From Maritimibacter dapengensis (lineage in GTDB: Bacteria > Pseudomonadota > Alphaproteobacteria > Rhodobacterales > Rhodobacteraceae), in the NCBI RefSeq assembly GCF_019218265.1, contig NZ_JAHUZE010000002.1, positions 744,001-808,000 of the forward strand: a stretch of DNA of 64,000 nt, given 5' to 3'. The notes under the pieces are model-generated. The model was not told where the DNA came from. It worked only from the letters and a program-made list of their open reading frames with translations, and did no database searches. Position 1 is the first letter of the stretch; each line of letters starts with the position of its first letter. This document shows, piece by piece, positions 4,952-50,600 of this stretch. Both the position numbers and the translations under genes were made by a program.

Positions 4952-5947
4952 TTACAGCCGGCCCATCGTGGCGGCCACGTCGGCCATCCGGGTCGAGAAG
5001 CCCCATTCGTTGTCGTACCAGGCCAGCACGCGCACGGTCCGCCCGATCACCTTGGTCTGGGCCGGGGCGAAGATCGAGCTCTGCTCCGTGTGGTTGAAGT
5101 CGATCGAGACCTTCGGCTCGTCGTCATAACCCAGCACCCGCGCCATCGGTCCGGCGGCGGCTTCGCGCATGATCTCGTTGACGTCTTCGACGGTCACGTC
5201 CTTGCCCGCCTCGAAGGTCAGGTCGATGCAGGACACGTTCGGCGTCGGCACGCGAAGCGCGGTTCCGTCGAGCTTGCCCTTGAGGTCCGGGAGCACTTCG
5301 CCAAGCGCCTTGGCCGCCCCGGTCGAGGTCGGGATCACGGCCATCGCCGCAGCGCGCGCGCGGTAAAGGTCGTCGTGCCGGCGGTCGAGCGTCGGCTGGT
5401 CGCCGGTGTAGCTGTGGATCGTCGTCATGATGCCGCGCTCGATTCCGATGGTATCGTTCAGCACTTTGGCGATCGGAGCCAGCCCGTTCGTCGTGCAGGA
5501 CCCGTTCGAAATCATGTAGTCCGAGCTTTCCAGCGTCTCGTCGTTCACGCCGAAGACGATGGTCTTCTGCACGTTCTTCGCCGGTGCCGAGATCAGCACC
5601 TTCTTCGCGCCGCGCTCGATGTGTTTCTTGGCCTTCTCGCCGTCGTTGAAATTGCCGGTGCATTCCAGCACGACGTCGCAGCCCGACCAATCCAGCTCGT
5701 CCATGTCGTAGGTCGACATCATCCGCATCGGGCCGCGGCCCACGTCCATGGTGCCGTCGCCCACGGCGATGTCCTGCGGATAACGGCCGTGTACGCTGTC
5801 GTATTTCAAAAGATGCGCTGCGGTTTCCAGCGGGCCGGTCGCGTTGACCTTCACCACCTGGATGTCGTTACGGCCCGATCCTGCGATCTGCGCCAAGGTG
5901 CAGCGCCCGATGCGCCCGAAGCCGTTGATTCCGACAGTAACCGTCAT
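4952..5947 (-). CDS. Glyceraldehyde-3-phosphate dehydrogenase, second paralogue (NADP-type residues)
   Basis: A 331-residue GAPDH with INGFGRIGRC at residues 7-16, catalytic Cys151 in NGSCTTNG and the base histidine in TTIHSYTGDQ. Two features differ from the paralogue at 1465. The NAD-ribose-binding Asp is replaced by Ala (VKVNATG), as in NADP-preferring GapB enzymes. The segment that contacts the adenosine phosphate side reads DRRHDDL instead of DTMHKDL, adding two arginines. I infer an NADP-preferring, possibly gluconeogenic enzyme. The second Cys of the usual CTTNC is Gly. The ATG at 5947 has GGGGGA six bases upstream; the longer open frame is not needed. Confidence 0.93.
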   Translation of the reverse strand: MTVTVGINGFGRIGRCTLAQIAGSGRNDIQVVKVNATGPLETAAHLLKYDSVHGRYPQDIAVGDGTMDVGRGPMRMMSTYDMDELDWSGCDVVLECTGNFNDGEKAKKHIERGAKKVLISAPAKNVQKTIVFGVNDETLESSDYMISNGSCTTNGLAPIAKVLNDTIGIERGIMTTIHSYTGDQPTLDRRHDDLYRARAAAMAVIPTSTGAAKALGEVLPDLKGKLDGTALRVPTPNVSCIDLTFEAGKDVTVEDVNEIMREAAAGPMARVLGYDDEPKVSIDFNHTEQSSIFAPAQTKVIGRTVRVLAWYDNEWGFSTRMADVAATMGRL

Positions 5948-6051
5948 GTCATGTCCCCCATCAGGGTTTGCAGTCATCTCGCGCATCCCCTCGCGCGCTT
6001 TTTCTCGGTCATCATATACGGGACGGGTCCGATCCGGGCCAAGGCAAAAAC

Positions 6052-6110
6052 ACGTTATCGGCCAATATGTTAGCGAAAACATGCCGTAAAAATGCACGTT
6101 AGCGCGAACG
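6052..6110. promoter_or_regulatory. Three LacI-type half or full operators upstream of the second gap gene
   Basis: Three copies of the GTTA-N-CG-N-TAAC pattern are present. They are GTTATCGGCCAA (6054), ATGTTAGCGAAAACAT (6067-6082, a near-perfect palindrome) and GTTAGCGCGAAC (6098, one mismatch). The first GAPDH gene carries a perfect copy at 2539. The region also drives the divergent DUF808 gene. Confidence 0.5.
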
Positions 6111-6126
6111 ATACCGCAAACGGTAT
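6111..6126. promoter_or_regulatory. Short inverted repeat in the gap/DUF808 divergent promoter
   Basis: ATACCG-CAAA-CGGTAT, a perfect 6-bp inverted repeat with a 4-base spacer, 112 bases before the DUF808 start. Either a protein-binding site or a small hairpin. Confidence 0.3.
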
Positions 6127-6237
6127 GCGATTGGATACCTGCCCGGACGCGTCCCCCTGACGCGCTGTCAGGGGGATTCGCATCTTGTCTTGTGCGGGGG
6201 GCGCAGTAGGGTGTTCCGAAACGGAAACGAGGGCAGG

Positions 6238-7215
6238 ATGAGCGGACTTCTCGCATTGCTGGACGACGTGGCGGGCATCGCCAAGGTGGCTGCGGCCTCC
6301 GTCGACGACGTGGCGGCGCAGGCACTCAAGGCGGGCTCGAAAGCCGCCGGCGCGGTGATCGACGACGCGGCGGTCACGCCGAAATACCTCATCGGCTTCG
6401 ATGCCAGCCGCGAATTGCCCATTGTTGGCAAGATCGCGCTCGGCTCGATCCGGAACAAGCTCCTGATCCTTCTGCCGGTCGGTCTGCTTCTGGCCAATTT
6501 CGCCCCTTGGGCGATACCGCCGCTTCTGATGCTGGGCGGGGCTTATTTGTGCTTCGAGGGGGCCGAGAAGATATGGCACGCGCTCTTTCCCCATGAACAC
6601 ACCGTCCACGACCCGAAACAGCATGAAAACCCGGACCCGATGCATCTCGAAGAGCAAAAGGTATCGGGCGCGATCAAGACCGATTTCATTCTGTCTGCGG
6701 AAATCATGACCATCGCCTTGTCGGCGCTTCCCGAAAGCAGCTTCTGGATGGAAGCCGGGGCGCTCGCGCTTGTCGCAATCGGCATCACCGCCGTTGTCTA
6801 TGGCTCTGTCGCGCTGATCGTCAAAGGCGACGACCTTGGGCTCGCCATGGCGGCCCAGGGGCGGCTGGGCGTGACCCGTGCGATCGGGCGCGGGCTGGTC
6901 AAGGGGATGCCCTATTTCATGAAGTTCCTGACCATCGTCGGTACGGCGGCGATGCTCTGGGTGGGGGGCAACATCATCGTGCACGGCCTGCACCAGATGG
7001 GGTGGGACCCGATCTACGATTTCATCCACCACAATGCCGAAGCGGTCGGGCATATGGTATCGGAAGGTCTGCGGCCTGCGGTCGAGTGGACAGCGGTGGC
7101 CGCGCAGGACGGCGTCTTCGGCTTTGCGCTCGGCCTGATCCTGATCCCCGTCGCCACGCGGATCATCAGCCCCGCCATTGCGGCGGTGACAGGAGGCAAG
7201 GCCGACGCGCATTGA
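6238..7215 (+). CDS. DUF808 (YedI-type) inner-membrane protein
   Basis: A 325-residue protein that begins SGLLALLDDVAGI, the hallmark of DUF808/YedI proteins. It continues with the family segments DDAAVTPKYL and ELPIVGKIALGS. Several hydrophobic helices follow (about 75-125, 165-205, 235-265, 290-315). The centre contains a His/Glu-rich stretch around CFEGAEKIWHALFPHEH, which could face solvent. The function of the family is not established. The start at 6238 has GAGGGCAGG just upstream; an ATG 16 codons earlier lacks a ribosome-binding site. It diverges from the second gap gene. Confidence 0.88.
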   Translation: MSGLLALLDDVAGIAKVAAASVDDVAAQALKAGSKAAGAVIDDAAVTPKYLIGFDASRELPIVGKIALGSIRNKLLILLPVGLLLANFAPWAIPPLLMLGGAYLCFEGAEKIWHALFPHEHTVHDPKQHENPDPMHLEEQKVSGAIKTDFILSAEIMTIALSALPESSFWMEAGALALVAIGITAVVYGSVALIVKGDDLGLAMAAQGRLGVTRAIGRGLVKGMPYFMKFLTIVGTAAMLWVGGNIIVHGLHQMGWDPIYDFIHHNAEAVGHMVSEGLRPAVEWTAVAAQDGVFGFALGLILIPVATRIISPAIAAVTGGKADAH

Positions 7216-7250
7216 TGTGCGCTGTGCACGGGGTCGACTTTCGGTCAAGC

Positions 7251-7305
7251 CGTATGTGAACCATACGCGTTACATACGTATTCCATACGTGTTCCATACG
7301 TATCG
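7251..7305. repeat. Five phased 11-bp tandem units (CATACG/CGTATG)
   Basis: CGTATG at 7251 and CATACG at 7262, 7273, 7284 and 7295 recur at exactly 11-bp intervals, separated by TATTC/TGTTC-like spacers. The array lies between the convergent DUF808 and transketolase genes, just before their shared terminator. Confidence 0.75.
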
Positions 7306-7313
7306 GATTGCAC

Positions 7314-7339
7314 AAAAACGGGGCCCGCAGGCCCCGTTT
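7314..7339. terminator. Bidirectional terminator between DUF808 and tkt
   Basis: Stem AAACGGGGCC / GGCCCCGTTT with a CGCA loop; A-run on one side and T-run on the other, so it can serve both converging genes. Confidence 0.85.
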
Positions 7340-7363
7340 GTGCATTCGTGAAGGTGTCCGGCG

Positions 7364-9385
7364 TCAGCCGATCAGGTCCCTGACCTTGCCCGCTACCGCC
7401 TCCGGCGTGATGCCGAATTCTTCGTAGAGCGTGGGGGCAGGCGCCGACGCCCCGAACCCTTCCATGCCGACGAATCCGGCCTTCTTCTCGGACCCGCGCT
7501 CGCCGAGAAGCCAGCGGTCCCAGCCGCCGTCGCGCAGTGCGGCTTCCACGGCCACGCGCACCGGGCCAGGGGGCAGGATCTTGCGCCGGTAGGCGTCGTC
7601 CTGTTCCGCGAAGAGTTCCATGCAAGGCATTGAAACCACACGCGTTCCGATGCCCGCTTCCTGAAGGATGTCGCGCGCTTTCATCGCGATCTCGACCTCC
7701 GACCCGGTGGCGATCAGCACGGCCTGCCGCTTGCCTTCTGCCTCGGCCAGCACATAGGCGCCTTTCGTGACGAGGTTGGAGTTCCTGTGCTCCGTGCGCA
7801 GGGTCGGAAGCCCCTGACGCGACAGGGCCAGAACGCTCGGCGTCTTCTGTGAGGTCAGCGCGATCTCCCATGCTTCCGCCGTCTCGATCGTGTCGCAGGG
7901 TCGGAAGGTGTAAGAGTTTGGAGTCGCACGACAAATCGCCAGATGCTCGACCGGCTGGTGGGTCGGCCCGTCCTCGCCAAGTCCGATGGAATCGTGGGTC
8001 ATGACATAGGTGACCGGGATACCCATGAGGCTCGAGAGCCGCATCGCGCCCCGCGCATAATCGACGAAAGCCATGAAGGTCCCGCCATAGGGGCGAATAC
8101 CGCCGTGAAGCACCAGACCATTCATGATCGCGGCCATGCCATGTTCGCGGATGCCGTAATGCACGTAACGGCCTTTACGGTTCTTCACATCGAAGATGCC
8201 AAGATCGGCCGTCAACGTGTTGTTCGATCCGGTAAGGTCCGCCGAACCGCCGATGTTTTCCGGCATGATCGGGTTCACGACTTCGAGCACCATTTCAGAC
8301 GATTTCCGGGTCGCAACCTTCGGAGCTTCCTCGGAAATCTGTTTTTTCAGCGCTTTGATGCGGGCCGACAGCTTTTTCGACGGTTCAAGATTGAAGACCC
8401 GGTTGAACTCTTTCTGGCGCTGGTCGGACAAGTCCGCGAACCGGCCTTCCCAGGCCTTGCGATCCTCGGCCCCGCGCTCGCCGATCGCTTTCCACTGGCT
8501 CGCGATCTCGTTGGGGATGGTGAAGGCGGGATGCGGCCAGTCGTAGATCTTGCGCAGCTTGACGATCTCGTCCTCGCCCAGCGGCGAGCCATGCGCCTTT
8601 GCCGTGTCCTGCTTGGACGAACCGAAGCCGATATGCGTCTTGCAGTCGATCATCGTCGGCTTCTTGGACTTTTTCGCCTCGGTCAGAACGCGGTCGATGT
8701 CGTCCGGGTCGTGGCCGTCACAGGCTAGCACCTGCCAACCTGCCGCCTGGAAGCGTTTACGCTGGTCGGTGATGTCCGAGAGCGTCACCTCACCGTCGAT
8801 GGAGATCGAGTTGTTGTCCCACAACACGATCAGTTTCGAGAGTTTCTGTTTGCCAGCAAAACCAATGGCTTCGTGGCTGATACCCTCCATTAGGCAACCG
8901 TCGCCCGCGATCACGTAGGTGTAGTGATCCTGCACCTTCTTGCCGAAGCGTGCGCGCAGCATTTCCTCGGCGGTGGCCATACCCACGGCTGTCGAGATCC
9001 CCTGACCCAGAGGCCCGGTCGTCGTCTCGATCCCCTGCGCATGCCCGTATTCCGGGTGGCCGGCGGTCTTTGCGCCCCATTGACGGAAATTCTTGATCTC
9101 CTCGATGGTCATGTCTTCGTAACCCGTAAGGTGCAGAAGCGCATAGATCAGCATCGAGCCATGGCCCGCCGACAGAACGAACCGGTCGCGGTCGGGCCAG
9201 TCGGGGCGGGACGGATCGAATTTCAGGTGTTTCTCGAAAAGCACCGTGGCGACATCCGCCATGCCCATCGGCATGCCGGGGTGGCCGGAATTGGCGGCCT
9301 GAACGGCGTCCACGGCCAACATGCGGATCGCGGCCGCTTTCATCCAATGGTCGGGGTGTTTTTCGCGAAGGGCGGGAATGTCCAC
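7364..9385 (-). CDS. tkt: Transketolase
   Basis: A 673-residue thiamine-diphosphate enzyme that transfers two-carbon ketol units between sugar phosphates (pentose phosphate pathway and Calvin-type interconversions). Visible motifs are [10 protein letters not shown] near residue 34, the ThDP/Mg site [13 protein letters not shown] near 160 running to WDNNS, and the second-domain signature [14 protein letters not shown] near residue 475. The open frame extends further upstream, but the family N-terminus matches the GTG at 9383-9385, preceded by AAAGGA. It is monocistronic as far as can be seen, with a strong terminator just downstream, and shares the minus strand with the two gap genes. Confidence 0.95.
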
Positions 9386-9608
9386 GGGGGCAATCCTTTT
9401 TGTGATGAGTGCGCTGTGCGGTCGGTTTAACAGCCAATTGGGCGAGATCAAGCGCGACCTCCAAGTGGTTGAGGCAAAAGGGGCGCATTCCCGCCGGGCA
9501 TGGGATAGGATCGCAACAGGGAGCGCCGCAATCCGATTCGTGGCCCGCTTGCATGCAGGCCCATGGCGCGGCAAACTCCCTCAAAGGTAGAAAAGGGACA
9601 GGCGGAGC

Positions 9609-10112
9609 ATGAGCGAGATTTCCGAGCTACAATCACGCATCGCGACTGCATTGGACAGGATCGGCGCGGGGGTCGAAAGGCTGGACAGCAGCGCAGGTGC
9701 CGAGCCGGGCGACACGTCCGAGGTCGATGCGTTGCGCGCGCAACTCGAAGAGGAGCGCACGGCGAACGCCCAACTCGAGGAGCGGGTTCGCACCATCAAG
9801 GATACGCAGGACGGCACCGTGGAGCGGCTGACGAGCGATGTCGAGAGGCTTTCTAACCTGTTGTCCACGCAGGAAGAAACCGTCGCGAGACTGGCGCGGG
9901 CCAACGAGGAACTACGCAAGAACAACGGTGAATTGCGCAAAGCGATCAGCGACGGCGTGGCGGAGCCGCATCTCGTGAACAAGGCGATGATGACGGAACT
10001 CGAGGCACTGCGCGTGGCGCAGAGCGCCGACCGGGCCGAGATCGACGCGGTTCTGGGCGAGTTGAACGCAATGATCGAAGCCGGACAGGGAAAGGAGGCC
10101 GAGGATGCCTGA
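9609..10112 (+). CDS. Coiled-coil protein encoded immediately before zapA
   Basis: A 167-residue acidic protein composed almost entirely of heptad-like sequence (about residues 38-118: long runs of Glu, Arg, Leu and Asn, no Cys), so a parallel coiled coil is expected. There is no signal peptide or membrane helix. It overlaps the zapA start by eight bases, which implies translational coupling and a linked role, perhaps in division-ring or envelope work, but no known family is recognisable to me. The start at 9609 follows AAAGGGA. The 223-base gap back to tkt shows no other gene. Confidence 0.75.
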   Translation: MSEISELQSRIATALDRIGAGVERLDSSAGAEPGDTSEVDALRAQLEEERTANAQLEERVRTIKDTQDGTVERLTSDVERLSNLLSTQEETVARLARANEELRKNNGELRKAISDGVAEPHLVNKAMMTELEALRVAQSADRAEIDAVLGELNAMIEAGQGKEAEDA

Positions 10113-45301: not shown

Positions 45302-45418
45302 CGCTTGTGGGTTTCGGGAATGGCCGATTGCGGGGTCGCGACGGAACACCCCAGCCGCCCGGCGCGTTCTGAACAGGAAGTTTGCCCGAAACATCGGGAA
45401 ACGAGAGGAGATATCACA

Positions 45419-47341
45419 ATGATGAAGAACGCCCTGAAATCCACCTCCGTCGTCGCGCTCTGCACCGCGCTGATGACGCCGGCGAGTTTCGCACAGGACG
45501 CGGAAGAGCAGTTGGAAGAATGCACCGTCACCGGTCCTTTTCCGTGCGTGACCGCTGATGGCGTGCGCGTCGAGAACGCTGTCGAACTGGCACGCGAAAG
45601 TCTGCTGCCCTCCGACCCTGAACCCGAAAGCGCCGAGACCGCGCCTGAGCCGCCCGCAGAACCGGAAACGGCGGAAACACCTCAGGAACCCGCAGCGCCC
45701 GGCGAAGAGCCTGCCCAGGCACAGCCGGACAACGCGGATGCACAGGGCGAGGCCGCCGAGACTGCGCCTGAACCCGCAGGCGAGGGTGAGGCCGGACAGA
45801 CCGCTGCCAGCGAACCCGAAACGCCGCCTGCAGAGGCGGAAGTAGAAGCCGAAGCTGAAGTCGAAACCGAGGTTCAGGAAGAGCCTCAGGCGGACGCCGC
45901 ACAGGAGCCGCAGGAACCGATGACCGATGAGGCGGCGCAATCCGCTGCAGATGAGGCTATCGCGGATCAGGAGCCGGCCGAAGAGGAAACGGCACAGGAC
46001 GACGCGGTCACCGAAGAGATGCCGGCCGAAGAACCGGCGGCCCAGGCCGACACCGAACAGCCTGCCGAAAGCACCGAAGCAGAAGCACAGGCCGAAGCCG
46101 AAGCCGAGGCTGGCGAAGACGACGGTTCGTTGGTCGAGAAGCTCGCCGACGAAATCGCGGACCGGGTTGCGCCCGAGCAGGACGAAAACATCGAGGCGCA
46201 AGCTGAAGAAGGCCCCGACGTCCCGGAAACGCCTGTCGAAGACGTGGCCCCCGAATCTGCTGCCGCAGCTGATGCGGAAGCCGATGACGAACTGCTCGAC
46301 GAACAGATGGTCGATGTAGAAGGCGTCGAGACGGAAACCGTGACCGAGGAACAGGCGCGGTCGTCTGGCGAGGAGTTCGAAACGCAGGTCGGAGCACGCG
46401 GCAATGCGCAAGCGAATGCTCAGGCCGAAGACAATCAGCAGGGTCAGGGTCTGAACCGTGAACTCACGAATTTCGAGAAAACCGTCCTCGCGGGTCTCGG
46501 CGGTATCGCTATCGGCACGATCCTGGCCAATGGCGACGAGATCGTATCGAATTCCGGGGATCGCATCGTGGTGCGCAATCCCGAAGGCGATCTTGAAGTG
46601 CTGAAGAACGACGACGAAATCCTGCGCCGTCCCGGCTCGACCATACGCACCCGGACCTATGACGACGGATCGACCAAGACGGTCGTTCGCCGCGAAAACG
46701 GCGTGCGTATCGTCACCGTGCGCGAGGCGGACGGCACGACCGTGCGTCGCGTTCGCCTGATGCCCGATGGCACGCGCTACGTGCTCTTTGACGACACGCA
46801 AGCGGCGGAACCGGTCGACCGGGACGATGTCGCCAACTCGGGACAGCGCCAGCAAACGAATGTTTCGGCGTCCGACGAAGCGGCACTGCGTGACGCGCTG
46901 ATGGCAACGATGAACCAGAACACTGGCCGTACTTTCTCGCTCCGTCAGGTGCGACAGTACGAAAGCGTACGTGACCTCGCCCCTGTCATCGAAGTCGACG
47001 CGATCACCTTCGACACGGGCTCGGCGGTCATCCGCGCGAGCCAGGCGGAGGAATTGGCCGATCTGGGCGTCGCGATTCGCGACGTGATCGAGGAGGTTCC
47101 GAATGCCGTGTTCCTGATCGAAGGCCATACGGACGCGGTGGGTAATGCAAGCTACAACCTTGCCCTGTCCGACCGTCGCGCCGAAAGTGTGGCCCTCGCA
47201 CTCACGGAATATTTCGATGTGCCGCCGGAAAACCTGATCACGCAGGGCTATGGTGAAAGCGAGTTGAAAATCGTGACCGCCGACGCAGAGCGCCAGAACC
47301 GGCGCGCGAACGTGCGCAACATCACGCCGCTGCTGCAATAA
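45419..47341 (+). CDS. OmpA-family protein with a long acidic low-complexity linker
   Basis: A 640-residue exported protein with a signal peptide (residues 1-26, cleavage after SFA). From about residue 50 to 350 it is an Ala/Glu/Pro-rich, highly acidic region without clear domain structure. A glycine-rich hydrophobic stretch, VLAGLGGIAIGTILAN (near 365-380), and a beta-rich segment follow. It ends with a complete OmpA peptidoglycan-binding domain (about 520-640: EGHTDAVGN, LSDRRAESV, GYGES). AGGAG lies eight bases before the ATG at 45419. It probably links wall and outer surface. Confidence 0.88.
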   Translation: MMKNALKSTSVVALCTALMTPASFAQDAEEQLEECTVTGPFPCVTADGVRVENAVELARESLLPSDPEPESAETAPEPPAEPETAETPQEPAAPGEEPAQAQPDNADAQGEAAETAPEPAGEGEAGQTAASEPETPPAEAEVEAEAEVETEVQEEPQADAAQEPQEPMTDEAAQSAADEAIADQEPAEEETAQDDAVTEEMPAEEPAAQADTEQPAESTEAEAQAEAEAEAGEDDGSLVEKLADEIADRVAPEQDENIEAQAEEGPDVPETPVEDVAPESAAAADAEADDELLDEQMVDVEGVETETVTEEQARSSGEEFETQVGARGNAQANAQAEDNQQGQGLNRELTNFEKTVLAGLGGIAIGTILANGDEIVSNSGDRIVVRNPEGDLEVLKNDDEILRRPGSTIRTRTYDDGSTKTVVRRENGVRIVTVREADGTTVRRVRLMPDGTRYVLFDDTQAAEPVDRDDVANSGQRQQTNVSASDEAALRDALMATMNQNTGRTFSLRQVRQYESVRDLAPVIEVDAITFDTGSAVIRASQAEELADLGVAIRDVIEEVPNAVFLIEGHTDAVGNASYNLALSDRRAESVALALTEYFDVPPENLITQGYGESELKIVTADAERQNRRANVRNITPLLQ

Positions 47342-47362
47342 GTCGGTTAGCGGACGAACCAA

Positions 47363-47397
47363 ACGGGCGCGGAGTTTCATCTTCGCGCCCGTTTTTG
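47363..47397 (+). terminator. Terminator of the OmpA gene
   Basis: Stem ACGGGCGCG / CGCGCCCGT with a 12-base loop and a TTTTT tail, 20 bases after the stop codon. Confidence 0.88.
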
Positions 47398-47438
47398 TCG
47401 TATCATCGAAAAGCCAGTTCAAGGGAGGAACGAGCCAC

Positions 47439-48986
47439 ATGCCGAACGACGACACAGATGCAGCGCCACTGATCGCCGCGAAATCCCCGGCAAAAGTCGA
47501 ACTCAAGAAGGGCGAGACGTATTTCTGGTGCCGATGCGGACGCTCGAAGAACCAGCCGTTCTGCGACGGATCGCACAAGGGGACGGGGCTCGCGCCGCTG
47601 GAGTTTACCGCGGACGAAGACGGCGATGCTTATTTGTGCCGGTGCAAGGGGACTTCGGACGCGCCGTTCTGCGATGGCACGCACAACAAGCTTCCCGAAG
47701 ATCTGGATGTGGGCGACCCGGTTCCTGAGGCTGACACGGACGATGGCCCACCAGAGCCGGAGCCGACGCCGGAGGAGCCGACTGTCGCGCGGATACACGA
47801 GATCGCGCGCAAAGGGATTTCGTCGGGCCATGGAGCGATGGACGCGATGGGGGTCCCGCGAGATCGCCTGCCGAAATGGGAGGATATACAGCTACTTCCC
47901 GCCCAGCTTGCGAAAAAGCCGCTCCTGGATGACGCCGAGGTCGCCACGGAAACCGTGATCGGCCCACGCGCGGACAAGCCGCTGACCCTGCAAATTCCGC
48001 TCTTCGTGACCGACATGAGCTTCGGAGCCCTGTCGCCCGAGGCCAAACTGGCCCTTGCCAAAGGTGCCGAAGCGGCCGGGACGGGAATCGCCTCCGGCGA
48101 GGGCGGCATGATGCCCGAGGAGCAGGAGGCCAATGGCCGGTATTTCTATGAATACGCATCTGCCGTTTTCGGCTGGACGCCTGACATTGCGCAAAAGGTT
48201 CAAGCTTTTCACTTCAAGGGCGGGCAGGCGGCCAAGACCGGTATCGGCGGCCATCTTCCGGCGTCGAAAGTCACCGACAAGATCGCCGAAGTGCGCGGGC
48301 TGGAAAAAGGCGAGGATGCCGTGTCGCCCGCGACGTTCGAGAACCTGCATACGCCCGCCGAATTCGCGCGTTTCGCTGACGAGGTGCGCGACATGTCCGG
48401 CGGTATCCCGGTCGGCTTCAAGATCTCCGCGAACCATATCGAGGATGACATCGACTTCGCGCTCGAAGCTGGGGCCGATTACGTCATTCTCGATGGACGG
48501 GGCGGGGGCACAGGCGCAGCACCCCTGCTGTTTCGCGACAATATCTCGATCCCGACCATTCCCGCCCTCGCACGTGCGCGCGCGCATCTCGACCGAAAAG
48601 CCGGGCGCGACGTCACACTTGTCATCACCGGCGGTCTCAGAATGCCCGAGGATTTCGCGAAAGCGTTGGCCTTGGGGGCCGACGCCGTCGCGCTGGGAAA
48701 TTCCGCGATACAGGCGGTCGGCTGCGTTGCGGCGCGAATGTGCCATACCAACAATTGCCCCACCGGCGTGGCGACACAGAAGCCGGAATTGCGCAAGCGG
48801 CTGGATGTCGAGGCAGGCGCAGATCGCCTTGCACGGTTCTTCGATGCATCGACGCAGATGATGTCAGCACTCGCCCGCGCCTGCGGCCATAGCGCGTTGT
48901 CAGAATTTCGTCCCTTCGACATTACCACCTTCGATCGCGACATGGCTGCGCTGACAGGGATTCGGTTCGCAGGCGTGGCCGGATGA
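47439..48986 (+). CDS. Tandem CDGSH iron-sulfur domains fused to a glutamate-synthase FMN domain
   Basis: A 515-residue fusion. Two CDGSH motifs each supply three Cys and one His for a [2Fe-2S] cluster: Cys31, 33, 42 with His46, and Cys67, 69, 78 with His82. An acidic proline linker (90-114) leads to a GltS-type FMN barrel (about 120-500: FGALSPEAKLALAKGA, GRGGGTGAAP, VITGGLRMPEDF). The barrel keeps the CX5CX4C motif (Cys429, 435, 440) for a [3Fe-4S] cluster. There is no glutaminase domain. I infer a flavin/Fe-S electron-transfer enzyme; substrate and partner are unknown. Confidence 0.88.
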   Translation: MPNDDTDAAPLIAAKSPAKVELKKGETYFWCRCGRSKNQPFCDGSHKGTGLAPLEFTADEDGDAYLCRCKGTSDAPFCDGTHNKLPEDLDVGDPVPEADTDDGPPEPEPTPEEPTVARIHEIARKGISSGHGAMDAMGVPRDRLPKWEDIQLLPAQLAKKPLLDDAEVATETVIGPRADKPLTLQIPLFVTDMSFGALSPEAKLALAKGAEAAGTGIASGEGGMMPEEQEANGRYFYEYASAVFGWTPDIAQKVQAFHFKGGQAAKTGIGGHLPASKVTDKIAEVRGLEKGEDAVSPATFENLHTPAEFARFADEVRDMSGGIPVGFKISANHIEDDIDFALEAGADYVILDGRGGGTGAAPLLFRDNISIPTIPALARARAHLDRKAGRDVTLVITGGLRMPEDFAKALALGADAVALGNSAIQAVGCVAARMCHTNNCPTGVATQKPELRKRLDVEAGADRLARFFDASTQMMSALARACGHSALSEFRPFDITTFDRDMAALTGIRFAGVAG

Positions 48987-49604: not shown

Positions 49605-49787
49605 GGTCCAAATCCTTCGATTGTTGCTTGGAGTTTCGGGCTGGGAAGGTATAGGCGCACTGGCCTGCTTTCAAGCCGATAAGTGCTGGTAATCGAGCGA
49701 AAACCTGTTGCCCTTGAAGTTGAACTTCGTGAAGCGCATCTCATGTGCATTGGGTCTGATTGCGACCCGTCCAAACGGAGAGGGATC

Positions 49788-50600
49788 ATGAACAGAGGGC
49801 TGATAGGAATTATCGTCGTCGCGATTTTGGCGGTTGGAGGGTATCTCTGGTACACCAACAGCGGCGATGTCGACGCGATGGGCGAACAGGTCGAAGACAT
49901 GGCGAATGACGCGGCCGAAAGTGTCGGCGAAGCGGCAGAAGACGCGGCGCAGGCCGTAGAGGATGCCGTAGATGCCGCAGGCGAGGCGACCGAAGGCGCC
50001 GGTGATGCCGCGTCTGACGCAGCGGATTCGGTCGAAGAAACGGCCAGTGAAGCTGCCGAAGCGGCAGAGGGCGCTGCGAACGAGGCGATGGACGCCGTGG
50101 AAGAAACGGCGAGCGACGCCGCGGAAAGCGCTGCCACCGCCGCGGAAGACGCCGCGAACGCGGCTCAGGACGCCGCCGAGTCCGCTTCGGACGCCATGTC
50201 GGAGGCAAGCGACGCGGCTGGGGATGCCGCCGAAGGCGCTGCCGATGCTGCGGAACAAGCAGCAGGAACCGCCGCAGAAGCCGCGGAAGAGGCGGCGGAC
50301 GCAGCAGCCCAGGGCGCGTCGGATGCGGCTGAAGCGGCTGCCGGCGCAGCCGAGAGCGCAGCGGAAACGGCGGAGAACGCAGCCGACACGGCACAAGCCG
50401 CTGCGATGGACGCCGCCGGTATCACGCAGTATCTGGAGCCGGAAACCTTCGATGCAGCTCAGATCACCGAATTCATCGAGGGATCGGACCTGCCGGACCC
50501 GGTCAAAACCACGCTCGTCGGCGCGGTCGAAAGTGCGGCGGACAACCCCGACATGGTCCCCGAGGTTATCGAACAGATCAAGACGGCGTTCGACATGTAA
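49788..50600 (+). CDS. Membrane-anchored alanine-rich acidic repeat protein
   Basis: A 270-residue protein with a short N-terminal membrane anchor (GLIGIIVVAILAVGGYLWY, residues 4-22). About 180 residues made almost only of Ala, Glu, Asp, Ser and Thr follow, in irregular heptad/11-mer-like steps (repeats of EAAEDAA, DAADSVEE, SDAAEAA type). The C-terminal 60 residues form a different, conserved-looking domain (ITQYLEPETFDAAQITEFIE). A long helical rod in the periplasm, LEA- or apolipoprotein-like, is predicted. GGAGAGGG precedes the ATG at 49788. Function unknown. Confidence 0.75.
   Translation: MNRGLIGIIVVAILAVGGYLWYTNSGDVDAMGEQVEDMANDAAESVGEAAEDAAQAVEDAVDAAGEATEGAGDAASDAADSVEETASEAAEAAEGAANEAMDAVEETASDAAESAATAAEDAANAAQDAAESASDAMSEASDAAGDAAEGAADAAEQAAGTAAEAAEEAADAAAQGASDAAEAAAGAAESAAETAENAADTAQAAAMDAAGITQYLEPETFDAAQITEFIEGSDLPDPVKTTLVGAVESAADNPDMVPEVIEQIKTAFDM

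Follow-up and report, generated by a model that had tools for sequence, protein, structure and literature searches.

A tandem CDGSH protein with a glutamate synthase-type flavin barrel in Maritimibacter dapengensis, and a Rieske form of the same barrel

What does a glutamate synthase-type flavin barrel do when it carries a pair of CDGSH domains in place of most of glutamate synthase? The question is raised by one gene in a stretch of 64,000 nucleotides of Maritimibacter dapengensis, referred to here as the window. CDGSH (NEET) proteins are investigated in connection with human disease, and the role of their clusters is still disputed. A tandem CDGSH pair fused to a catalytic flavin domain, with a Rieske domain as the alternative, makes an electron-relay role testable in a soluble bacterial enzyme.

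The fusion gene and its product

The gene occupies 47439..48986 (+), exactly as delimited in a first-pass annotation of the window, and is a single open reading frame without internal stops that encodes 515 amino acids. A Shine-Dalgarno-like sequence, AGGGAGGA (47422..47429, +), is followed by the ATG of the fusion gene 9 nt downstream. Between this gene and the upstream gene for an OmpA-like protein, which ends at 47341, lies a terminator-like hairpin with a T run (47361..47396, +; −25.8 kcal/mol, z −6.5), which comes from a folding energy calculation and is absent from the pattern-scan list. Because of this hairpin, the two genes are probably separate transcription units.

Neither neighbour was retained as a functional partner inside the window: the OmpA-like gene is cut off by the hairpin, and an IF-3-like gene, the first one downstream, runs on the opposite strand. 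Five neighbour clusters of the fusion gene are common to a Maritimibacter assembly (L033); the neighbourhood is conserved between the two and says little on function. The OmpA-like protein itself (45305–47341, +) has a very long acidic stretch rich in Glu, Ala and Pro, and a similar protein occurs in L033. Further downstream, the product of 49683–50600 (+) has an N-terminal hydrophobic stretch, beyond which Ala-rich DAA/EAA-like repeats make up most of the protein.

Pfam assigns zf-CDGSH to two stretches of the fusion protein (3.8e-20). The first CDGSH motif, CRCGRSKNQPFCDGSH, spans residues 31–46 (47529..47576, +) with the ligands C31, C33, C42 and H46, and the second, CRCKGTSDAPFCDGTH, residues 67–82 (47637..47684, +) with C67, C69, C78 and H82; both are read from the sequence and from the ligand pattern in relatives. 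In a PDB sequence search, residues 9–84 matched the tandem CISD protein 3tbn (4.5e-28), and CISD3 was also matched. The two ligand sets are complete in the sequence, and the protein is predicted to bind a [2Fe–2S] cluster at each. The acidic, Pro-rich linker that follows (residues about 85–115; 47691..47783, +) differs among relatives in the alignment.

The remainder is an FMN barrel of the Glu_synthase family (PF01645; 9.5e-90), residues 175–484 (47961..48890, +). It matched the glutamate synthase (GltS) structures 7mfm, 1ea0 and 1llw at 3e-31 to 6e-30. An AlphaFold model computed from a 56-sequence alignment reached a mean pLDDT of 88, and its best seven Foldseek matches were GltS, followed by other FMN barrels. 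The [3Fe–4S] motif CVAARMCHTNNC, of the form CX5CX4C, is found at C429, C435 and C440 (48723..48758, +). The first-pass annotation had described two complete CDGSH motifs, an acidic proline linker, a GltS-type barrel keeping CX5CX4C and no glutaminase domain, and this domain make-up is borne out at every point.

Relation to type 5 CISD proteins and to glutamate synthase

The fusion of tandem CDGSH domains to a GltS FMN domain was named ‘type 5 CISD’ by Lin et al. (2011; PMC3174974), and the combination of CDGSH with Glu_synthase is listed again in PMC5859297. The window protein has two four-ligand CDGSH motifs with a spacing of about 20 residues and, by Pfam, PDB and Foldseek, a GltS FMN-binding domain at the C-terminus; the protein itself does not differ from type 5 CISD as described in the available text. 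That text places the type mainly in Proteobacteria, with Vibrio splendidus and Ca. Pelagibacter ubique given in a figure legend; one of our loci (L102) is from a V. splendidus. Type 6 CISD (MmCISD, 3tbn) and CISD3/Miner2 share the tandem CDGSH part with its two C-x-C-x8-C-x3-H ligand sets but, unlike the window protein, are without a flavin domain. An undescribed architecture, and with it the ‘undescribed system’ of the first-pass annotation, is ruled out, as the fusion is published and also common. The available text of PMC3174974 and PMC5859297 gives no function for type 5 CISD, and we found no paper on its function, Rieske form or gene context in the open-access literature, subscription papers being mostly outside the search.

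The first-pass annotation had called for a survey of how widely the fusion occurs. It is widespread: at least 80 loci in named genomes were listed, from 553 candidates encoding a relative, and all of those listed are nearly full-length matches (query residue 12 or lower through 506 or higher). Their titles name Alpha-, Gamma- and Zetaproteobacteria, Bacteroidota, Planctomycetota, Verrucomicrobiota, Gemmatimonadota, Chloroflexota and Bdellovibrionota, though many are metagenome bins, so that the phylum may be mislabelled in some cases. Evenly sampled genomes gave barrel matches (E 1e-110 or better) in 62 cases out of 394 for the window's family, in 14 out of 385 for its class and, with a Rieske-type query, in 41 out of 398 for its phylum.

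Since the 80 listed loci were found through barrel patterns and not through CDGSH, they are an unselected test of the CDGSH part. By script, C-x-C-x8-C-x3-H occurs twice in 78 of them and four times in L090; the barrel of L088 was missed by the script, and both of its CDGSH motifs were read by eye. As loci picked by the barrel only keep the ligand pattern, the pairing of CDGSH ligand sets with this barrel is more than chance. In the 56-row alignment, by comparison, invariance of the ligands is partly by choice, as its rows were drawn from loci already passing the CDGSH pattern. CX5CX4C is present in all 166 loci of one pattern-found set (repeats included).

Some loci depart from the common form. 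In Halomonas ventosae (L090, about 7862–9869) the tandem CISD unit is doubled, giving four CDGSH motifs ahead of the barrel. Three loci (L132, L153 and L165) have changed CDGSH motifs and an intact barrel, and a ligand Cys is lost in L165 only, the ligands of L132 and L153 being kept, which suggests that the full CDGSH pair is not always needed.

The window protein shares with GltB and ferredoxin-dependent glutamate synthase (Fd-GltS) the FMN barrel, the CX5CX4C [3Fe–4S] motif and the Lys and Arg of the substrate segment. It differs in what surrounds them: Pfam found no type II glutaminase domain up to E 1, no GXGXG beta-helix domain and the GltS central domain only at E 0.049, under the cut-off, and the protein has its own [2Fe–2S] module where GltS uses GltD or ferredoxin. 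The window genome has a separate GltB, in a frame of 1535 amino acids with FMN and GXGXG domains, which is the only place in that genome with a GXGXG match; two further barrels lie in frames of 505 and 582 amino acids. The only CDGSH match in the genome is the window protein. The lone barrel and the separate GltB support the earlier view that this is not an ordinary glutamate synthase.

The predicted substrate site points in the same direction. The GltS segment AKPGEGGQLPG aligns with KTGxGGHL of the window family, so that the K...Q...R of GltS corresponds to K266...H272...R286 (48234..48296, +), with the Lys and the later Arg kept and Gln replaced by His. We take K972, Q978 and R992 of Fd-GltS, at these positions, to bind 2-oxoglutarate. 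One set of 166 loci, counted with repeats, has KTGxGGHL throughout, and 78 of the 79 barrel-pattern loci listed have K.G.GGHL; in a 17-sequence alignment K266 and R286 are invariant and the barrel residues strongly conserved. The change from Gln to His argues against formation of glutamate from 2-oxoglutarate.

A Rieske form of the same barrel and its gene context

Some matches of the first search were without a CDGSH part yet had a longer open frame, and in the two that were read the N-terminus is a Rieske-type [2Fe–2S] domain. Pfam identified Rieske in three of three such proteins scanned (3e-11 to 1e-12). Among 165 distinct barrels, 124 are preceded by two CDGSH ligand sets, one by four, one by a single set, 36 by a Rieske pattern and three by neither. 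The pattern behind the 166-locus CX5CX4C set missed four Rieske loci (L117, L118, L119 and L179). Of the three barrels with neither pattern, one is truncated by a contig end (L032), one contains a stop (L122) and one, on a plasmid of Pseudoalteromonas sp. NC201 (L173), lies in a 717-aa frame. Three haloarchaeal plasmid genes also have the Rieske pattern. A predicted structure of the Rieske form had a mean pLDDT of only 67.7; Foldseek again returned GltS barrels, and the model adds little. Relative to the type 5 CISD description, the Rieske form on the same barrel is new here.

In a tree of 74 barrels (43 CDGSH, 31 Rieske), a single branch (support 97/94) separates the two types, and this split is independent of the root. 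For this reason we read the two types as the outcome of an exchange of the N-terminal [2Fe–2S] module, Rieske against CDGSH pair, on one barrel. When an outgroup is added, the CDGSH types nest within the Rieske types; the outgroup branch is very long and the root weak, so the Rieske type is at best weakly indicated as ancestral. The available text of PMC3174974 derives type 5 from fusion of a type 6 CISD to a GltS domain, whereas our trees fit an exchange between Rieske and CISD on one barrel.

One-electron transfer is shared by Rieske and CDGSH domains. The occurrence of two unrelated [2Fe–2S] modules on one barrel would therefore mark the N-terminal module as an electron relay; this is our strongest argument, and it also speaks against a sensor specific to CDGSH.

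Within six genes of 22 mapped Rieske-type loci we found a Rieske-TPP enzyme in 11, a Ferric_reduct plus Rieske membrane protein in eight and an Na+/H+ exchanger in seven, each neighbour family being identified by one to three representatives. In the sample of 394 family genomes, 18 of the 20 with a Rieske-TPP gene also have a CISD-less barrel, which occurs in 33 overall (Fisher 3e-20), and in 15 of these 18 the two genes are no more than 3 kb apart. This co-occurrence is new here as well. CISD-less here means a barrel match that starts at residue 105 or later (33 of the 62 barrel genomes); the DNA of 18 of the 33 was read and all were Rieske, and four partial matches were put in the non-Rieske class. 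In NCBIfam the TPP part comes closest to pyruvate oxidase, with a score under the cut-off of that family.

Among the Rieske operons, that of L176 (3653–9694) contains three different Rieske fusions: the Rieske-GltS barrel, a Ferric_reduct-Rieske membrane protein and a Rieske-TPP pyruvate-oxidase-like enzyme, together with one protein that has no match in Pfam and some small membrane proteins. Similar loci are L175, L177, L178, L180, L186, L187 and L191. In the gammaproteobacterial, CDGSH-type locus L098, a gene for a 748-aa protein with tandem CDGSH, Rieske and a complete TPP enzyme (5677–7923) lies directly upstream of the CISD-GltS gene.

This context raises the possibility of an amino- or imino-acid dehydrogenase, in which an amino acid would be oxidised at the barrel to give a 2-oxo acid, the electrons being handed on by the [2Fe–2S] module; for the Rieske branch, the Rieske-TPP enzyme would then oxidatively decarboxylate the 2-oxo acid and the membrane Rieske/ferric-reductase-like protein would take up the electrons. 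The close genomic association with Rieske-TPP genes, the pyruvate oxidase affinity and the Ferric_reduct plus Rieske protein within the operon all favour it, as do the invariant K266 and R286, which on alignment with GltS are a better fit for a 2-oxo or imino acid than for a quinone. The His in place of the GltS Gln in nearly all loci means that the substrate may not be 2-oxoglutarate. A TPP partner for the window protein was not retained, as the Rieske-TPP search gave no match in the window genome at E 1e-120 and 1e-110; nor did 50 of 52 CDGSH-type genomes give one at the limits used. The scheme may hold for the Rieske branch only, and as an account of the family we consider it unlikely.

Gene context of the CDGSH form and its proposed role

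A different neighbour accompanies the CDGSH form. A homologue of a glutathionyl-hydroquinone-reductase-like (GS-HQR) GST, first met beside one of the fusion genes, is encoded in 51 of 52 CDGSH-type genomes, and in 22 of the 52 it lies no more than 6 kb from the fusion gene, against 0.38 expected from uniform placement, an estimate whose Poisson value is not a true probability because the genomes are related. The 52 are those with a locus read and exclude unclassified matches that had none; links can also be concealed where a contig breaks off. In eight of the 22 linked genomes a GS-HQR-like copy is 38–82 bp from the fusion gene. PDB matches of the GS-HQR-like protein include 4fqu, YqjG (3r3e) and 4uss, ‘glutathionyl hydroquinone reductase’, and no NCBIfam family was assigned to it. 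None of the 22 Rieske-type loci has a GS-HQR cluster nearby. The GS-HQR link is also absent in the five genomes of the window's genus, the window genome included, where the GS-HQR-like gene is on a different contig from the fusion gene; among the window neighbours of the fusion gene, no GS-HQR, pirin, DoxX or hemerythrin gene was seen. The GS-HQR context of the CDGSH type is new here.

We inspected 20 linked loci, which were chosen for having the GS-HQR link, so that their gene orders are not rates. A hemerythrin gene is in the same gene run in 13, and in six the fusion gene and hemerythrin lie between two GS-HQR genes. In the five linked loci that belong to other classes of the phylum, pirin is also present, some with a free tandem CISD, a nitroreductase, YceI or cytochrome b561.

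Neighbours were also counted with a simple ORF script around 69 named loci (11 of the 80 listed lost their target and were dropped), comparing 380 genes at one to three genes' distance with 322 at four to six. GS-HQR was found 11 times at the nearer and once at the farther distance, and pirin nine times and once. LysR was not enriched near the fusion gene (12 versus 11), and one LysR protein searched in the PDB gave no match named YhaJ, so a LysR/YhaJ link was not retained. Any of six stress families was present within three genes in only 16 of the 69.

In E. coli, yqjF is presumably DoxX-like and yhhW pirin-like, and yqjG, we assume, adjoins yqjF. In the available text of PMC5031710, YhaJ mediates the induction of E. 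coli yhaK, yhhW and yqjF by hydroquinone. In part of the relatives, the CDGSH-type gene has recurrent neighbours from the pirin, DoxX-type and GS-HQR families. The E. coli system differs in that E. coli is not one of the five control genomes, out of 14, that gave a CDGSH match, and no YhaJ link is shown.

Taking contexts and architecture together, we propose that type 5 CISD is a single-chain flavin/Fe–S oxidoreductase, probably a dehydrogenase or a quinone-type reductase, that serves the response to quinones and hydroquinones or to electrophiles; we put the chances of this at about even. The ‘flavin-linked redox enzyme’ of the first-pass annotation is the best reading. The N-terminal [2Fe–2S] module would act as the outside electron relay, as GltD or ferredoxin does for GltS, in a chain running from substrate through FMN, [3Fe–4S] and the [2Fe–2S] module to an outside partner. 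In GltS the [3Fe–4S] cluster sits between FMN and the outside clusters (PMC8097209, available text), so that the N-terminal module would most likely dock there.

The direction of flow would probably be the reverse of that in GltS. Parts of the literature available to us give potentials, for other proteins than this one, near 0 mV for the CDGSH clusters of mitoNEET (PMC9737848) and near −280 mV for the GltS [3Fe–4S] cluster (PMC8097209). If these values carry over, electrons would leave FMN and [3Fe–4S] through the CDGSH pair to a quinone or other acceptor. MitoNEET is described in PMC9490426 (available text) as moving electrons from FMNH2 to O2 or ubiquinone. The proposed quinone/hydroquinone or electrophile role beside GS-HQR, in some cases with pirin, hemerythrin or DoxX, is drawn from part of the relatives; the window copy, which has none of these four as neighbours, is assumed by orthology to share it.

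More tentatively, and with considerable doubt, the two-branched family filed under glutamate synthase could be a new class of dehydrogenase feeding the quinone pool, with CDGSH as a catalytic electron relay. One FMN/[3Fe–4S] barrel would carry interchangeable [2Fe–2S] modules, the Rieske branch being partnered by Rieske-TPP, CISD-Rieske-TPP and the Rieske/ferric-reductase-like membrane protein and the CDGSH branch by quinone-stress enzymes. Genes with the type 5 CISD architecture that are labelled ‘glutamate synthase-related protein’ are probably outside nitrogen assimilation.

The first-pass annotation had also suggested a sensor. A redox, NO or oxygen sensor, or a store or donor of Fe–S clusters with the barrel as a flavin switch, would agree with the hemerythrin neighbours in some operons and with reports, in the available text, that the reduced mitoNEET cluster binds NO (PMC9490426) and that the oxidised cluster can be transferred to apo-proteins (PMC9737848). 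It loses ground because the same barrel also occurs with Rieske, a different cluster type, instead of the CDGSH pair; with the barrel residues strongly conserved and no output domain found by Pfam, we regard it as distinctly improbable. An ammonia- or amine-dependent glutamate-type synthase, with electrons entering through the CDGSH pair, has the family, fold and [3Fe–4S] motif of GltS and the glutamate biosynthesis annotation of five plasmid records (evidence code IEA) on its side, but is the least probable reading, given the missing domains, the separate GltB, the change from Gln to His and the poor match of a CDGSH pair at about 0 mV as an electron source for a [3Fe–4S] cluster at about −280 mV.

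The GS-HQR/CISD-barrel operons hold one further recurrent element. Upstream of those in L201, L204, L206, L208, L209 and L214, one or both of two unfamiliar proteins (405 and 356 aa in L208) are encoded, and both have signal-like N-termini.
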